Shown: positions 3,867-28,380 of the stretch, in pieces | Layout of the letters: the number at the start of each line of letters is the position of its first letter | How positions within the stretch are numbered: position 1 is the first letter of the stretch | Origin: Acidobacteriota bacterium | GTDB taxonomy: Bacteria; Acidobacteriota; Terriglobia; Terriglobales; Acidobacteriaceae | Length of the DNA: 64,000 bases | Assembly (NCBI GenBank): GCA_003225005.1 | Contig: QIAN01000178.1 | Location: forward strand, 1-64,000 | Direction of reading: 5' to 3' | The notes under the pieces: model-generated | What the model saw: only the letters and a program-made list of their open reading frames with translations | Database searches by the model: none | What the model was told of the DNA's origin: nothing | Made by a program: the position numbers and the translations under genes

Positions 3867-5420
3867 TCATTGTCCGTTTAGTGGTAACACCGGCGCCGGA
3901 TCGCGTCGCAGCCAGCCCCAAAGGGTTAGCGCTTCCATGTTCGCGCTCGTGCCCTGAAAAAAAAGACTCATCGGGTACCCCACGACGACCAAAACGATAT
4001 GGCCGATGGCGCCAATCATGTATTCGTGCAGCGGAAAGTTGTATCGCCCCAAATTCAAGAAGCTTCCGCCATTCAAGGTCAATGTTGCCCAAGCAGTGAA
4101 TACCAGATTTGCGATGATGCCCGCATATGCGCCTTGCCGATTTGCACGAGTGCTGAGGAATCCGAGCAGGAACAAGCCCGCCACTCCTCCTGCGACAATC
4201 GCCGAAACCGTGTACCAGAGCGAGAGTGCGGTTCCCTGATTGCGCCCGAGTTGGATCGCGAATATAACAACAGCGGCCCCGCAGATAGCTACAAGGTATT
4301 TTGCGATGTGCAATCTGTGCCCATCGGTAGCATGCAGCCAAACCTTGCGGTAAAAGTCCTCCACAACTACGACCGAAATGCAGTTCAAGTCAGAGGAGAG
4401 CGTTGCCATCGCTGCACCAAACAGTGCCGCAATGAACAAGCCTGCAACCCCGGCAGGGATGTGGGTTCGGATGAAGTAAGGAAAGACCTGGTCTGCTTTC
4501 GTTATGAACGTCGGCACTGATTCTCCCGTGAGTTTGTAGAATGCCCATAGCTGTGTTCCGATAAACATGAACAGGACCCATACCGGGATGCAAAGCGCCG
4601 CACCTAAAATCAGCCCACGCAGCGCCTCTTTATCGCTCTTCGCAGACAAATAGCGCTGCACCATCGTTTGGTCCGCTGTATACTTTTGCAGGTACCAGAA
4701 GAAACCATAGATAGACAACACGACGATCGTGGGCTTGGAAAACGCTAACTCAGTGCTTCCCATGGCGAACTTGTGGTTGGCATGGGCCAGCGCCCACACG
4801 GCCGACGGGCCACCCGGCGGAAGAAAAAGCAGGTATCCAACACAGATGAGAATACCAATCCAGAGAATGAACCCCTGAACGACGTCTGCCCAGATCACAG
4901 CTTCCCACCCACCCAGCAGGGTATAGAAAGTGGTGACCGTACCAACGCCAACCACAATTGTGTCGAGGCGCCAACCCGTCATCCCCGCGATTGTCAATCC
5001 CAGCAGGTAGACGATGAAAGCCATCTTGGAGAACGTACCCACTACGAAGGCCAGCGAAGAGTAGGCCCGCGCTGGGTATCCGAAACGATTTCCAAAGTAT
5101 TCGTACGCGCTCATGCCTACGGTATGGCGATAGAAAGGAATGATCACAGAACCGACAATTGCGAGCACGGCAATGACCATGATTCCGGGCACGAGCATAG
5201 ACCAATTTCCTGCATACCCTGCCCCAGGATAGGCAATGAAGGTAACCGCGCTGATGATGGTGGCGAGTAGTGACATGCCCAGTGCCCAAGCTGGAATCGA
5301 GCGCTTCGCGACAAAGTAGCTCTCAGTTGTGGTCTGGCGCTGAGCGAAGCGGAAACCGATCGCCACCATGGCGCTCATGTAGGCTACGACCACCAATGCA
5401 TCGAGCCAGCGCAAGCCCAT
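3867..5420 (-). CDS. Sodium/solute symporter (SSS family), probable sugar-acid or sugar uptake
   Basis: A 517-residue inner-membrane protein with about 13 hydrophobic segments, of the SSS (SGLT-like) family that imports sugars or organic acids with Na+. Recognisable parts are the N-terminal YFVAKRSIPAWALGMSLLAT loop, WEAVIWADVVQGFILW in the middle and QTMVQRYLSAKSDKEALRG. Start ATG 5420 is chosen because it follows the PdxA stop (5423-5425) by two bases and has AAGGA upstream; the longer frame to 5453 would run into that gene. Its place between PdxA and the aldolase suggests it brings in the compound that the operon degrades. Confidence 0.85.
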   Translation of the reverse strand: MGLRWLDALVVVAYMSAMVAIGFRFAQRQTTTESYFVAKRSIPAWALGMSLLATIISAVTFIAYPGAGYAGNWSMLVPGIMVIAVLAIVGSVIIPFYRHTVGMSAYEYFGNRFGYPARAYSSLAFVVGTFSKMAFIVYLLGLTIAGMTGWRLDTIVVGVGTVTTFYTLLGGWEAVIWADVVQGFILWIGILICVGYLLFLPPGGPSAVWALAHANHKFAMGSTELAFSKPTIVVLSIYGFFWYLQKYTADQTMVQRYLSAKSDKEALRGLILGAALCIPVWVLFMFIGTQLWAFYKLTGESVPTFITKADQVFPYFIRTHIPAGVAGLFIAALFGAAMATLSSDLNCISVVVVEDFYRKVWLHATDGHRLHIAKYLVAICGAAVVIFAIQLGRNQGTALSLWYTVSAIVAGGVAGLFLLGFLSTRANRQGAYAGIIANLVFTAWATLTLNGGSFLNLGRYNFPLHEYMIGAIGHIVLVVVGYPMSLFFQGTSANMEALTLWGWLRRDPAPVLPLNGQ

Positions 5421-9171: not shown

Positions 9172-9268
9172 TTGTAATATCTCCCCTCATAACTCTCACA
9201 TCGCGATCAGCACCGTGCCCTCCAGCAAACTTCAATGCGGGTGTAAGACGAGGCCCGCTCGCAGTTCA

Positions 9269-9281
9269 TTGGTTCAGCCAC
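9269..9281 (-). promoter_or_regulatory. Operator A: TTGG-N5-CCA palindrome, probable GntR site
   Basis: Reads TTGGTTCAGCCAC on the plus strand, 7 of 8 arm positions of TTGG-N5-CCAA. It lies about +5 to +17 from the predicted start of the fucosidase operon transcript and shares TTGGTTCAGCCA with operator C. FadR-subfamily GntR proteins such as PdhR and LldR bind TTGG-N5-CCAA-like sites. Assignment to the GntR protein at 17788 is inference. Confidence 0.6.
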
Positions 9282-9291
9282 TAGCGAAAGC

Positions 9292-18527: not shown

Positions 18528-19259
18528 CTATTTCGTGGCTGCGAATTCCAGCCTAGTTGGCCTTTCCGAGTCCAATTTCAACCAGACCACAAGATCGCGG
18601 CCTTCAAGAGTAGGCACGAAGCCGTACCGAAAATCCGCCCCGCGAGCGACCAGTTTCCGGTCAATGCGGAACTTTAGGTCGGCGTCGCCCCAATTTCTGA
18701 TCACGAAGGCAGGATTTATTAACGGCGATTCAGAACTTGCCTGCAACAATATCCGCAGTTGTGGAGCGGAAGTAGCGGTTTGACGAGTAACCACAAATGC
18801 CCGCTGGGTCTGGTCGTATCCTTGGCTCTGGAATCCTACTCCACTCACCTCGATACTGGGCGCTGAGAGCCACGACTTTGCCAATGGAACCAGTTGCGCC
18901 GCTGACTTCGTTGTCAAACCGTGCAACAGGATCTTGGTCATAGTGTTATCTGTCTTCGTGTACGGATCCCAAATAATATGTGACAGCGATGAATGCGACG
19001 GCCGGTCCGGCGCCACCGCGGAAATGCCGCTCGATCTCACCTGCGCTACCGGCCAATGGTTCCACCATTCGAACATCGAGTAGGTCACCTCTCCGGTATA
19101 TGCCTTCATTGACGAATTCACTGGCGAAACGATCTGTAACGGCTTCCAATTCGACTTGAGATTTACCACTTGAATGTTAGGTCTCTCCGGCTTGTCATCG
19201 TGGCGATCTTCAATTCGCGGGGATACTGTTGTCGGGGCACAAGCATTGCTCTCCTCCAT
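18528..19259 (-). pseudogene. C-terminal remnant of a larger carbohydrate-related protein
   Basis: An open frame of 243 codons with no signal peptide. Residues from about 30 (NLKSNWKPLQIVSP, FEWWNHWPVAQV, DRPSHSSLSHIIWDPY) look like the tail of long secreted proteins found beside polysaccharide-degradation genes, ending in a beta-rich domain (LEGRDLVVWLKLDSERP). A complete member would be several hundred residues longer. The frame has a stop directly upstream of ATG 19259, and the next material is an integrase remnant, so the 5' part was probably lost at the island boundary. I cannot name a catalytic family. It converges with the GntR gene with only 32 bases between. Confidence 0.5.
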
Positions 19260-19509
19260 TCAATGTAATTGGCCCCTTAATCTCCTGTCTCACTTTTGGG
19301 GTGCACTCCACTGCCCCTTTCCCCTGCACCCCAAATCCCCGCCGACCCGGCCTCCGCTTCGCTCCGGACAATCTCGCTTGACGATTCCGAACACTTACTT
19401 CACAATCACCATGCCAGCGTCGCTTCGCTCCGACTGCTGTTCACCTTCGCTCCGGAATCGATGTTCGCCTTCACCGGAATACCCAACCAGCCTCGGGACT
19501 CGCATCTCG

Positions 19510-19890
19510 ACAAACAATCTGCTCAATCGCCACATGTTGCCGGCGTTAAATCGCTGCCGGCATTGTGGCCTCAATGATGGCAAAAAGCACTTGGAACAAA
19601 ATCACAGATACGAGGGTGATAAACGATTGCCACGGTGGCACGGGTGGCATGCGGCACGGCGTGGCCTGGGAACCAATCTCTATCGGCTTGGAGTTCCCGA
19701 TAAAGTGATTCAGGCCATTCTTCGCCACTCGAACGTCAACGTCACGCTTGGCTATTACATCAAGCCACAAACCCCGGACGTTGTTGCAGCGATGGGCAGG
19801 TTCGAAGCGGAAATAGCTGCTCACGATTTTGGGGACACCAATCGGACACTAAATCGGACATCGAGTGCAGTACCCGAATCCGTAAACTGA
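19510..19890 (+). pseudogene. Tyrosine recombinase (phage-type integrase), C-terminal catalytic fragment
   Basis: The recognisable part starts near TNNLLNRHMLPALNRC and carries the last catalytic boxes: WHAARRGLGTNLYRLG (His-x-x-Arg), ILRHSNVNVTLGYY (second His and the nucleophile Tyr). The N-terminal core-binding domain and the first catalytic Arg are missing; the open frame continues upstream to 19174 but that part (a low-complexity Pro/Ser stretch) has no integrase character. It ends 20 bases from the CCA end of a tRNA-Thr 3' half on the other strand, the usual geometry of an integrase and its attachment site. Non-functional remnant. Confidence 0.8.
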
Positions 19891-19910
19891 TCTTTTCGAA
19901 GAGGTTAGGA

Positions 19911-19955
19911 TGGAGCCGACGAGCGGACTTGAACGGCTGACCTGCCGATTACGAA
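19911..19955 (-). other. tRNA-Thr(CGT) 3' half, probable attachment-site remnant
   Basis: On the minus strand these 45 bases run from anticodon loop TTCGTAA through TCGGC, variable AGGTC, T-arm AGCCG-TTCAAGT-CCGCT, acceptor CGTCGGC and TCCA. The upstream CCATA cannot pair with TCGGC, so the tRNA 5' half is absent. One T-stem mismatch is present. tRNA 3' halves cut in the anticodon loop are classic tyrosine-integrase att cores. Confidence 0.75.
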
Positions 19956-20333
19956 TATGGCGGTTCCCCTGTCTCAACTGACCGCCGCCGACGCAGATGA
20001 ACCCACCATCGAGACCATCGGCGACTGGCACCACTGCGTGGCACAGGGCTAAACGCCGACATCTGCGGCTTGCTCTTCGTGTACAACCGCGATCGCAAGT
20101 TCCATTCACCAGACCCGATCAGCCAGGCAAATTGCTTGAGCTTTGCGGTTCGCCTGGGGAATGACAGGATGACATTCGCCATCGGCTCCGCAGAATTTTC
20201 GTTAGGGACAGTCCTGTCGTTGGGGAAAGCCAACCCACAAGCCAACCCGCAGATTGATGTGTCTCGTACGACTTCCGCGAACTTTGGCAGTCCCCGCGGT
20301 CTTGTAAGTCGTTGAAAAACCTAGTACGCTTAA
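19956..20333. other. Spacer between two tRNA halves, no gene seen
   Basis: About 380 bases between the two tRNA 3' halves. I find no convincing coding frame. A short direct repeat (AAGCCAACCC twice near 20226-20250) is the only structure noticed; it could be an integrase arm site but this is a guess. Confidence 0.4.
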
Positions 20334-20379
20334 CCTCACACGGTGGAAGTCATAGGTTCAAATCCTATAGCGCCCACCA
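20334..20379 (+). other. tRNA-Val(CAC) 3' half, probable attachment-site remnant
   Basis: From the anticodon loop CTCACAC: GGTGG, variable AAGTC, a perfect T-arm ATAGG-TTCAAAT-CCTAT, acceptor AGCGCCC and ACCA ending at 20379. The bases before the loop (TTAAC) do not pair with GGTGG, so the 5' half is missing. An integrase remnant on the opposite strand ends 86 bases downstream, mirroring the tRNA-Thr half and its integrase. Confidence 0.8.
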
Positions 20380-20464
20380 TCTATTCTCCTCACGCGTGCA
20401 ATCACTTGCGCGTGTTTGGCTTTTCTACTCCGCAGAAATTCAGCCCGATGCCAGCCCGATGGAA

Positions 20465-21164
20465 TCATTGGGTTGACTCCAACGCGGGCTTCATCTTGAG
20501 CAACTGGTCCATGTACATGCGCTGAGCGTCCAACGCCTTTCCGAAGTTCCCATGCGTGTAAACCGCCGTCATGTCGGGTTTGGCATGACGCAGCATCGTC
20601 TGACTGACAGTGATGTCCTTTGTGGTTTCGTTCGCCCATGTGCTTAGGCTATGGCGGAAGCAGTGCCAGCCAAAACGCTCACGTTCACTTACCAGTCCCA
20701 AGTCGATTGCGGCTGGTTTGACGAACTGGGCGTTCATGCTCTGCCCCCACAATGGCTGTTTGCCTTTCAGGGTCGCGCGAGGCGAGGACAAAATTGTCAT
20801 CCTTGCCGTACTCGGTCTGTTGATACAACTCAAGAATGTTTGCTTCGAGAGACTCACACATCGGGACTGGTGCTTTGCTGGCTTTGGTCTTGGTACGATT
20901 CAAAATCTCTCCACGCCGGAACACCTGCTCAATCGAGATCTTGTTCTCGCGCCATAAGACATGACCCCAGCGGAGTCCAAGACATTCGGAAATGCGCACA
21001 CCTGTGGCAGCGACCAGCAGCACGGCAATGTTTACCGGACTGGGCAGACGTGCCACCAGTGAGAAAACCTCTTCCGGAGTGAGAAGTCGGATCCTCGGAT
21101 GTCCTTGCGGGCACCGCAGATCGGAAGACGCAAAAACGAACTCTGTGCAGATTGGCCGCTGCAA
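20465..21164 (-). pseudogene. Tyrosine recombinase (integrase) with internal frameshift
   Basis: Two overlapping minus-strand frames make one recombinase. The first (from 21164) has LLTPEEVFSLVARLPSP and the first catalytic Arg in AATGVRISECLGLRWGHV, running to DDNFVLAS. The second picks up near 20790 (PRATLKGKQPLWGQSMN) and has the His-x-x-Arg box FGWHCFRHSLSTWANE, TMLRHAKPDMTAVYTHG with the nucleophile Tyr, and ends at 20465. A single indel near 20780-20795 would restore it. The N-terminal SAM-like domain is not intact. Its 3' end faces the tRNA-Val half. Confidence 0.82.
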
Positions 21165-21257
21165 TCAAATTGCAAATCCTGGACAAATTGTTTTGCTGTG
21201 CGGAAGCGGCTCTCCGCTACCACATAGTTCCGATGCGGAAACGGGTATAATCTCTGT

Positions 21258-24817: not shown

Positions 24818-25465
24818 TCACGCCGCCTTCTTCTTTTTTGGATTGTGCCAGTTAGGACCGATGTCCGCTGTCTTTCCATTAGAAGGCTTCATTTTCGGAG
24901 GCTGTTGCGGAGGCCCTCCTTCTTCGGTTTCCTCGAACCATCCCTCCCCTTGGCACAGCGCTTCTGCTTCATCAAACATCCAGCCATAGATGATCAGCGT
25001 GATTTCAGGACTCTTATGCCACAAGTGCTTTGATATCGCAGGCAGTTCATCCTGGTGGTGATTCAGTCCATAGTGGACAAAAATATCGCGAAACAGGTGG
25101 GGGTTAACGCGCCGCCCCGTATATCTCAATGTTAAGTTCGAAACCAAGGAACCAAGTTGACCTTTTGTGAGCGGCCCACCATCCTCGGCAAAGTACCGAG
25201 CGCCGCTCGGGAGATTACGAGGCTCCAGGCCCTTTGCACGCCAGTCGAGTAACGTTCGTCCTGAGCAACCAAAAACTTTCCCAAGCTCCTCGGGCGTATA
25301 GGTACCCTTTTCGGGCATGCCTGCGTCACGCAAGAGACTTTCGAACAACGGGTATCTGGGAGTGGCTGCGGCATCGACATACCACTTGATCTTGTCCATA
25401 GGCGATAACTTGTCCCAGTGAGGCTGGGGGATGATCTTGGGCGCTTTCGCCAAAAGCTCGTCCAA
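24818..25465 (-). CDS. Recombinase-like protein with HTH-like segment, probably 5'-truncated
   Basis: The predicted 215 residues start at TTG 25465, but the same frame stays open and protein-like up to about 25575 (EAIDTGKVAKNQLPASPLQ), so the true N terminus is uncertain or lost. Near residue 55 TPEELGKVFGCSGRTLLDWR looks like a helix-turn-helix. From about residue 95, GGPLTKGQLGSLVSNLTLRY then GRRVNPHLFRDIFVHYGLN and ISKHLWHKSPEITLIIYGW resemble the last catalytic part of tyrosine recombinases (His-x-x-Arg, second His, Tyr). The first catalytic Arg box is not visible. Either an inactive recombinase remnant or a DNA-binding derivative. The Lys/Pro-rich tail is unusual. Confidence 0.5.
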   Translation of the reverse strand: MDELLAKAPKIIPQPHWDKLSPMDKIKWYVDAAATPRYPLFESLLRDAGMPEKGTYTPEELGKVFGCSGRTLLDWRAKGLEPRNLPSGARYFAEDGGPLTKGQLGSLVSNLTLRYTGRRVNPHLFRDIFVHYGLNHHQDELPAISKHLWHKSPEITLIIYGWMFDEAEALCQGEGWFEETEEGGPPQQPPKMKPSNGKTADIGPNWHNPKKKKAA

Positions 25466-25746: not shown

Positions 25747-28380
25747 CTATTTCAATCCCTCGACCACATAAAGGTCGCTGAGCAAGCGGCGATAGCCATA
25801 GACGTAGGTTCTTGCGTCGGCAGTCATTAGGATGGGACCGATGAACTCAACTCCCGCGGGATCCGATGGCCGCAGCTCTTTCCAATGCGTTCGCCGGCCC
25901 GAGGAGAGTTCGATCAGGTCGACTTTGGCGGGCAACTCCGCAGAGCGGTACACAAAGATAGAATGGCCGTCGCTGCTCCAGGCGACAGGCAACTCGCCTG
26001 CTCCAAGACTTGGAATGAGGCGTGGGTCTCCGCCGCCAACGGGGTAAAGATAGCCCTTCTGATCGGGACCGACCGCCGCGACCTCCTTGCCGTCGGGCGA
26101 AATCAAGTACGCCAGTCCGTAGGTCCCCTCGGGCGAAATAGCCAACGGCTTTCCTCCTGCTAAATCCTGCACATAAAGGCGCACTCCGTGGTCGGGTTCG
26201 TTGCCGGAGAAGAGGAAGTGTTTGCCGTCGGGGAACCAGCGAGCACCGACGTAGTTCATGGGCTTCCCGGATAGCGTTTGGGGCTCGCCCGCTCTGGTCG
26301 GAAGCACTACCAGCTTACCGACTGCATCGCTTGTTGTCGAAAGCACCCATCGTCCATCGGCTGACAAAGCAAAAGCCCTGCCCTCAGCCAGACGTACGGC
26401 GGGTGATCCGTCGGTTTGGCGAAGGTAGCCGGTGTATCGAAGTCCGCCCCCTTCTCCTTCCTCCCGAAAAAGCAGCGTTTTCCCATCCGTCGAGAGGTCG
26501 GAGGGATAAGACCAGTCAAGCCAGGAGAGATCGCGCTCTGAAGTGTCTCCGGCGGCCAGTCCGATCAATCCCCGCCGTGTGTTGTCGCGCGCCAACAGAA
26601 CCCGTCCATCGTGCCCGATGTCCAGCAGCCTCAAATCACCAGGTACTCGTGCTACCAAGCGCTGGTGGCCGGAGAGGTCCACCGCGTAAAGGACACGATC
26701 GATGCCCGTGATGGTCGCGGTGAACCAGAGTTCCTTACCGTCCGGGGACCACACCAGACCCTGGGCGGTATAGAACTCGCTGGACAAAGTTCTCTTGTTG
26801 CCCGCAAGATCGACGAGCGTAACCGAGCCCGCGTCATCACCAGCCAGAGGATGGTCAATGAAGGCGACCCAATTCCCCGCGGGCGAGACTCGTGGGTCAC
26901 TGATCCAGCCACCCGTCTGGTAGAGAACCTTGTCGACCGGGAACTCCAGGCGGCTTTGGCCGCCCACGTCCCGCACTACCGCGAGAGTATTCCCATCGGG
27001 AGACCAATCGGCCCACTGCACGTCGTCCAGAATTTCACGGGGAGCACCTCCGGCCAGGGGCATTCGCGCCAGAGTGCCGATGTGGATGTAGGACCGAACC
27101 TGCTGGCTGTGGAGCAACACGGCCAGCTCTCCGGTGGAAGAAATCGCTAGAATCTCGGCGCCGGGCAGCTCCAACGAACGTGATTGAAGGCTTTCCGGGC
27201 GGGCAACCAGAACTTCCAGTGGGCCGCCTTCCCAAGTCGCGCTGTACACGACACTCCGTCCATCGGAAGCGAAGCGTGCCATGCGGACCGTGCCCCTGCG
27301 AAACGTGATCTGGCGATACGTAGCAGGCGGTGGGATGGGCCGGTGTTCTGCCATGTAACCACCAGCGAATGCGGCTGCCACAATCAGAAGAGTGGCTGCG
27401 CCCCAGGTCGCAACGCGCCCCCGCCGACGAGAGGCGGGGGCGACTTCTGTCTGAACTTCTTCGCGAGTCCGAACTCCAGCGGCAAGCGCGGGCATACGTT
27501 TCGAATCGGTATCCCGTTTCAGGCGCTTGAGGTCGGCGCGAAGTTCCGACGCGCTTTGGCAGCGCAATTCCCGATCTTTTTCGAGCGCCTTGTTCAGAAT
27601 AATTTCCATCTGCGGCGGTAGTTCCGGATTCGACTGCATCGCAGGAGTGGGTACCTTATTCAGAATTGCTTCAAAGACAACGGCCGAGGTCGGTCCCGAG
27701 AATGGCTGCTTGCCTGTTGCCATTTCGTAAAGCACCACGCCGAAGGAGAACAAATCGCTCCGATGGTCCAGCGGCTCTCCGCGAGCCTGCTCAGGCGACA
27801 TATAACCAATAGTTCCCATTGCCGTTCCCGGAGTCGTGAGTTGGTCGGAGCTGATGGCAGTGGGCGCGCCTAAGGTGGGCAATGATCGGTCTACGAGATG
27901 GCTGGTTTGGGGCGTGAGTTTCGCCAAGCCAAAATCGAGGACCTTGGCCTGGCCTCGTTGGGTGACAAAGATATTCGCAGGCTTGATGTCGCGGTGCACG
28001 ATTCCGCCGGAGTGAGCCGCATCAAGAGCATCTGAGATCTGGATGCCCAGTTCTAGCAGCTGCGCAGGCTTCAGCGGACGGCCATCGATCATATGTTTCA
28101 GGGTCTCGCCGTTCAAATACTCCATGGCAATGAAAGCTTGCCCATTCTCCTGGCCGACGTCATAGATGGTGCAAATGTTGGAATGGTTCAGGGCCGAAGC
28201 CGCCTGTGCTTCACGCTGGAAGCGGCTAAGAGATTGAGGGTCTTTGGCCACGTCGTCAGGCAAGAACTTGAGCGCGACAAAGCGGCGCAGCCGGGTGTCC
28301 TCAGCCTTATAGACGACCCCCATGCCACCGCCGCCGAGCCTTTCCACAATGTGGTAGTGCGAGATGGTTTGGCCGATCAT
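25747..28380 (-). CDS. Ser/Thr protein kinase with C-terminal TolB/WD40-like propeller
   Basis: An 877-residue membrane-spanning sensor kinase. The cytosolic kinase domain (residues about 9-275) has the glycine loop [15 protein letters not shown], catalytic Lys in [27 protein letters not shown] and [10 protein letters not shown], all intact. A membrane helix follows near residue 335 ([20 protein letters not shown]). The outer part, about 360-877, consists of repeated beta-propeller blades with [20 protein letters not shown] and [11 protein letters not shown] signatures. This design, a Hanks-type kinase with an extracytoplasmic propeller, is common in Acidobacteriota; the ligand is unknown. 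It is monocistronic and there is no phosphatase nearby. Confidence 0.9.

Follow-up and report, generated by a model that had tools for sequence, protein, structure and literature searches.

Two opposed tRNA 3' halves beside broken integrases, probably dead island attachment sites, in an acidobacterial genome rich in such scars

We asked how the 3' halves of two different tRNA genes came to lie on opposite strands, each beside the remnant of a tyrosine integrase, in the draft genome of an Acidobacteriota bacterium (7.9 Mb, 550 contigs, 99.7% complete). The locus lies on contig QIAN01000178.1 (C141 of genome G000), of which a stretch of 64,000 nucleotides was analysed (hereafter, the window). 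Its features are collected in Table 1.

Table 1. Features of the locus in window coordinates; T1, V0 and V1 denote putative islands, and assignments to them are our reading.
Feature	Position	Strand	Remarks
Direct repeat TGTCCGATT x2, read as integrase-side arm (P') of T1	19840-19860	minus	0.08 expected by chance
int1 remnant, tyrosine integrase reduced to its C-terminal part	19474-19890	plus	3' end faces CCA end of Thr half
tRNA-Thr(CGT) 3' half, read as attachment core of T1	19911-19956	minus	parent gene is intact C251:1956-2031
Spacer between the halves	19957-20333		377 bases; right ~105 bases read as far-end arm (P) of V0
Direct repeat CAACCCACAA/CAACCCGCAG, read as P arm of V0	20231-20252	plus	matches repeat 41 bases behind intact tRNA-Val, C481
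Inverted repeat beside V0 arm	20268-20312	plus	similar copies in G003, G017, G002
tRNA-Val(CAC) 3' half, read as common core of V0 (attR) and V1 (attL)	20334-20379	plus	parent gene is intact C481:7409-7483
Direct repeat CAGCCCGATG x2, read as P' arm of V1	20441-20461	plus	related repeats in G010 and, partly, G034
int2 remnant, frameshifted tyrosine integrase	20465-21164	minus	3' end faces CCA end of Val half

Both halves extend over 46 bases to the CCA end. The intact copies that the first-pass annotation of this DNA had proposed to locate were found, one whole gene for each tRNA, with 1 mismatch in 46 to the Thr half and 2 mismatches in 46 to the Val half. Identity to the parent begins at the anticodon loop (in the Thr half one stem base earlier), as had been claimed together with the lack of a 5' half. 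Indeed, no complementary 5' arm was seen in the sequence ahead of either half, the 5'-half model found no tRNA 5' half in the window, and ARAGORN and Rfam (gathering threshold) found no whole tRNA there that the annotation might have overlooked. The gap, put at ~380 bases, has the length given in Table 1. A pattern search with up to three mismatches found only three Thr(CGT) sites genome-wide, in the window, on C251 and as an extra bare Thr half on C495 (6464-6509), and two Val sites, in the window and on C481, were found among the matches listed by DNA search. Because these searches gave so few sites, a chance origin of the halves is excluded.

The two neighbouring genes are both recognizable as tyrosine integrases and both broken. 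For int1, Pfam PF00589 matched 19174-19887 on the plus strand (E 1.1e-6), and residues 293-406 (of 431) of P0002 aligned by tblastn to 19474-19818 with 53% identity; only the C-terminal part, about the last quarter, is retained. For int2, PF00589 matched in two frames of the minus strand (20685-21164 and 20468-20857), with a frameshift near 20775-20794, and residues 220-432 (of 432) of P0001 were matched by tblastn, split over these two frames; the N-terminal half is missing. Separately, an ORF at 24818-25465 resembles a chimeric tyrosine-recombinase C-terminus by eye, with no Pfam match at E 0.01.

We searched the interval 19450-21250 against 61 genomes. In G006, G034 and G010, an intact tRNA-Val is followed by an int2 homologue (71-79% DNA identity), with similarity running from window position 20336; in G007, G027, G009 and G008, an intact tRNA-Thr is followed by int1-side homology, and similarity ends at 19956. 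Similarity to the window halts at the 5' end of each half. Since relatives carry the intact tRNA together with the same integrase and similarity stops at that point, we regard both halves as attachment-site products of tyrosine integrases. With the PF00589 matches, this confirms the claim that each CCA end faces the 3' end of its own recombinase remnant. G007 furthermore offers a precedent: 3.2 kb beyond its intact tRNA-Thr and int-side region lie a bare Thr half and a second copy of that region, a junction of half and integrase side like the one in the window. Among the remaining matches, most were the tRNA genes themselves, and the nearest named relatives were the acidobacterial MAGs bog_206 and Candidatus Acidiferrum typicum UBA7541.

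A comparison with relatives lacking the islands, also suggested by the annotation, yielded no empty site: a search with 16 kb around the locus against 45 genomes of the genus, its own included, returned no island-free version among the matches listed, because among those matches the left flank is kept in no genome of the 45. The matches listed comprised int2 in G006 and otherwise kinase cargo and paralogues. A serine/threonine kinase gene at 25747-28380 is 87% identical to a gene in G031:C8, which has a tRNA-Met half on one side and an eroded tRNA-Thr half on the other; because this arrangement differs from that in the window, the kinase is considered mobile cargo, not synteny. Two minor observations were also made. 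A repeat at 19200-19310 has an 87% identical copy near a tRNA-Met locus on C225, and a tRNA-Thr gene near a contig end in another genome (G001:C176, L069:5903-6007) carries an internal duplication from the anticodon loop to the T loop.

Short repeats next to the core are the binding sites of such tyrosine integrases; arm repeats were used to trace which island each side of a half belongs to. We tested the 66 halves with 150 or more bases of 5' flank for a 9-base direct repeat (spacing 9-13 bases) lying 60-140 bases 5' of the half. It was present in 29 of them; in control windows placed further upstream the rate was 13 of 190, and in random windows 193 of 4000. On the CCA side, repeats lay 35-110 bases away in 21 of 68 halves and in 15 of 38 intact-gene entries, which include a few tRNAs entered twice, compared with 23 of 301 controls. 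Such repeats pair whole tRNAs with halves on other contigs: Lys on C410 with C394, Thr on C251 with C495, Ala on C184 with C519, and Val on C481 with the window. The far end of the C251 Thr island is thus C495 and not the window. Seven halves with a neighbouring integrase had sufficient 5' flank, and arm repeats were seen at C78, C173, C248, the window Val half and the C495 Ala half, where the repeat falls just outside the tested span; no 5'-side repeats were seen at the window Thr half and the C366 Met half.

The two window sites differ in this respect. Around the core of the Val half, the left and right arms are read as belonging to different elements; the V1 repeat differs in sequence from the V0 repeat, and the Val site therefore looks chimeric. 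Only one repeat unit of the left arm (CAACCCACAA) matches C481 exactly, and the second unit, CCAACCCGCAG, is ambiguous: it also resembles V1-type repeats found in relatives (in G010, CCAACCCGATG), so that the left arm might instead belong to a V1-family element. The Thr half has repeats on the int1 side only, with none 60-140 bases on its 5' side, and its core is not flanked by arms of two elements.

The order of events that we infer is as follows. The integrase would recombine the tRNA gene at the anticodon loop. Since each island brings along its own 3' half of the tRNA, the integrated island would be bounded by an intact tRNA on one side and by a bare 3' half on the opposite side. A further island entering, or lying downstream, would place the bare half between the far end of the older island and the next integrase. 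The left side of the Val half would then be the far end of V0, whose other end would be the intact tRNA-Val on C481, and the right side would be int2 of V1. V0 would in that case span C481 and C141, separate contigs of a fragmented draft; a Pfam PF00589 search found no integrase behind the tRNA-Val on C481. The Thr site, with an arm only on the int1 side and with the C251 island ending at C495, appears stranded in the V0 end; it may have formed when an island integrated at a non-tRNA site, or when a rearrangement cut away the 5' side of its tRNA. As the Thr half lacks a 5'-side arm repeat, neither a tandem junction nor an alternative origin is favoured for it.

Taken together, these results make it probable that the locus comprises two dead attachment sites, the Val half being an accretion junction of V0 and V1, and the Thr half with int1 a stranded site inside the far end of V0. 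The first-pass annotation had seen here the meeting point of two former islands. This was right in kind, in that both halves are island attachment scars, each with its own integrase as judged from relatives, but incomplete: they are not the simple ends of two collided islands, the Val half being a tandem junction and the Thr half, whose 5' side shows no arm of an island end, sitting inside V0. The observation itself was sound. It concerns an ordinary type of site, for which one accretion junction plus one stranded attachment site is the better reading.

The mirror symmetry of the locus invites another reading, in which one composite element carried a double attachment site (int1, Thr core, arms, Val core, int2) and could enter either tRNA. 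The Val side does show a complete attP-like layout (P arm, core, P' arm, int2), but the spacer has no arm on the Thr side, both integrases are broken, and the left arm at Val agrees more closely with the C481 island than with V1. No second example was found either: among neighbouring halves that share a contig, the window pair is the only close opposed one, and we consider such an element unlikely. Less probable still, and in our view quite improbable, is that whole tRNA-Thr and tRNA-Val genes were once placed divergently at this locus, both followed by an island, and that deletion or later recombination stripped them of their 5' halves. Such a pair would directly yield the mirror layout, and Thr and Val sites do share a contig in G002, G004 and G007 (68, 90 and 104 kb apart, respectively). 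However, the break falls at the recombination point in both halves, an outcome hardly expected from two deletions, intact copies are present elsewhere in the genome, and the 5' flank of the Val half is an island arm. Trans-joined split tRNA genes, or a tRNA-like sequence arisen by chance, can be dismissed almost with certainty even though both halves break at the anticodon loop, since both tRNAs have intact genes, the window holds no 5' half that could form a pair with complementary leaders, and 44-45 matching bases of 46 are not chance.

An inverted repeat beside the V0 arm (Table 1) was considered as a multi-copy element and rejected, as it has one copy in this genome; its hairpin is not significantly stable (z -1.64). 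With up to two mismatches it gave 25 matches in 45 genomes against 11 for the reversed pattern, so that only the three exact matches are meaningful. In G002:C103, the repeats and the inverted repeat precede a tRNA-half-like stretch that contains a short N gap.

We also counted tRNA halves in the whole genome. A 3'-half covariance model built from 29 of its whole tRNAs gave 130 matches at E<=1. The count was made in fetched sequence, which held 78 matches from 68 fetched sources at E<=0.001 and covered only part of the weaker matches. ARAGORN called 11 of the 78 intact; three were returned to the halves, two as spurious calls (C50:6262 and C296:14063) and one (C239:17464) as a doubtful 71-base tRNA-Ala call over the Rfam cut-off. 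This left 70 tRNA 3' halves against 51 whole tRNAs, the latter being the rows down to C143 taken as full genes, excluding another five rows above the Rfam cut-off as well as the weak C536:46031 row. A library whole tRNA was matched at 42 or more of 45 bases by 31 of the 70 halves and at fewer than 38 by 35, for which single-base shifts in the ungapped comparison are partly responsible, and partly a parent gene outside the library or assembly, or a foreign contig. At equal settings, 101 3'-half matches were found here against 20-62 in the other 44 of 45 genus genomes, a comparison that somewhat favours this genome because the model was made from its own tRNAs; whole-tRNA matches numbered 51 here against 22-76. 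Binning of islands from several strains possibly inflates the half count.

PF00589 matched 88 times in the genome, with pieces of broken genes counted apart; our own integrase HMM detected fewer integrases, and the counts use Pfam. A convergent integrase within 600 bases accompanies 14 of the 51 whole tRNAs and 8 of the 70 halves (seven by Pfam and C366 by our own HMM). The combination of half and convergent integrase is hence nothing special here, and the unusual aspect of the window is limited to two such sites lying opposed, 377 bases apart.

The arrangement resembles the tRNA- and tmRNA-gene islands of Islander, which have a tyrosine integrase, a whole tRNA at one end, a displaced fragment at the other and an anticodon-centred crossover (the last in 2083 of 3919 islands; Hudson 2015, PMC4383910). 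Here too, a whole tRNA of the same identity exists in the genome, the displaced 3' fragment reaches the CCA end, and a tyrosine integrase belongs to both sites, though both genes are broken. An island of the Islander type has its tRNA and fragment on one replicon, in the same orientation and 2-200 kb apart. Here the integrases are dead, and the tRNA and fragment sit on different contigs of the draft. The portion of that paper considered here gives a maximum of 19 islands per genome and four arrays of at least three (PMC4383910); the 70 3' halves and these 19 islands are different measures, because most halves here have no adjacent integrase. Arrays of halves occur in this genome as well, with three Phe halves on C241 and three Asn-like halves on C258. 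A TIGER/Islander note states no per-genome maximum (PMC12424338). In tandem accretion of ICEs, IMEs and CIMEs, as outlined in the part of the source drawn on, an incoming element inserts into the att site of a resident that has decayed, so that a chimeric att site separates the two (PMC5704250). The Val half is alike in having such a site between elements; unlike the accretion described there, it is read from arm repeats only and lies beside an opposed stranded site for another tRNA. An acidobacterial comparative paper reports prophages and integrases and, in the sections considered, does not mention tRNA halves (PMC5900883). We recognised no published description of a comparable tRNA-half load in the literature searched.

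The mechanism is thus known and ordinary, the number of such scars is unusually large in this genome, and the load of halves is an extreme case of that mechanism. The site itself is ordinary island archaeology, and its value is that of an entry point: arm repeats beside tRNA halves allow both ends of an island to be matched across draft contigs, they expose a genome in which tRNA halves outnumber tRNAs, and the entry order of dozens of islands could be worked out. It is this load of halves that deserves further attention. A broader reading, which we hold only tentatively and think doubtful as a whole, is of extreme tRNA-anchored growth, still poorly described (89 scars, 70 3' and 19 5', against 51 whole tRNAs), with two mirror-image island classes that have paired arm repeats, the window being a composite site of two integrases and two cores after one island captured the site of another.

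Zhao and Williams reportedly described 5'-side tRNA integration in 2002 (as cited in PMC6563490). That reverse orientation is shown by 19 tRNA 5' halves in this genome, and it is not the mode of the window sites, both of which are 3' halves. The 5'-half model gave 50 matches, of which these 19 were without a whole tRNA, among them a Val 5' half on C20 (C20:11715). Repeats lay 50-140 bases behind 12 of the 19, compared with 1 of 56 control windows. On C410, a 5' half (9248-9285), a broken integrase and a whole tRNA-Lys (5276-5348) stand in one line, and the repeat behind a Pro 5' half (C145:3144) matches the repeat before a whole tRNA-Pro (C317:2207); islands 5' of tRNA genes thus occur as well. 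Some integrases, moreover, turn their 3' end toward the 5' end of a whole tRNA. The genome offers an opportunity to study this mode, in which the promoter side of the tRNA gene is replaced. The mode is considerably rarer in the part of the literature drawn on (PMC6563490), and 159 of 3919 Islander islands are on that side (PMC4383910). Group II intron matches were also noted on two contigs that bear tRNA 5' halves (L075:4607-4683 and L076:12439-12568, on C376 and C504).
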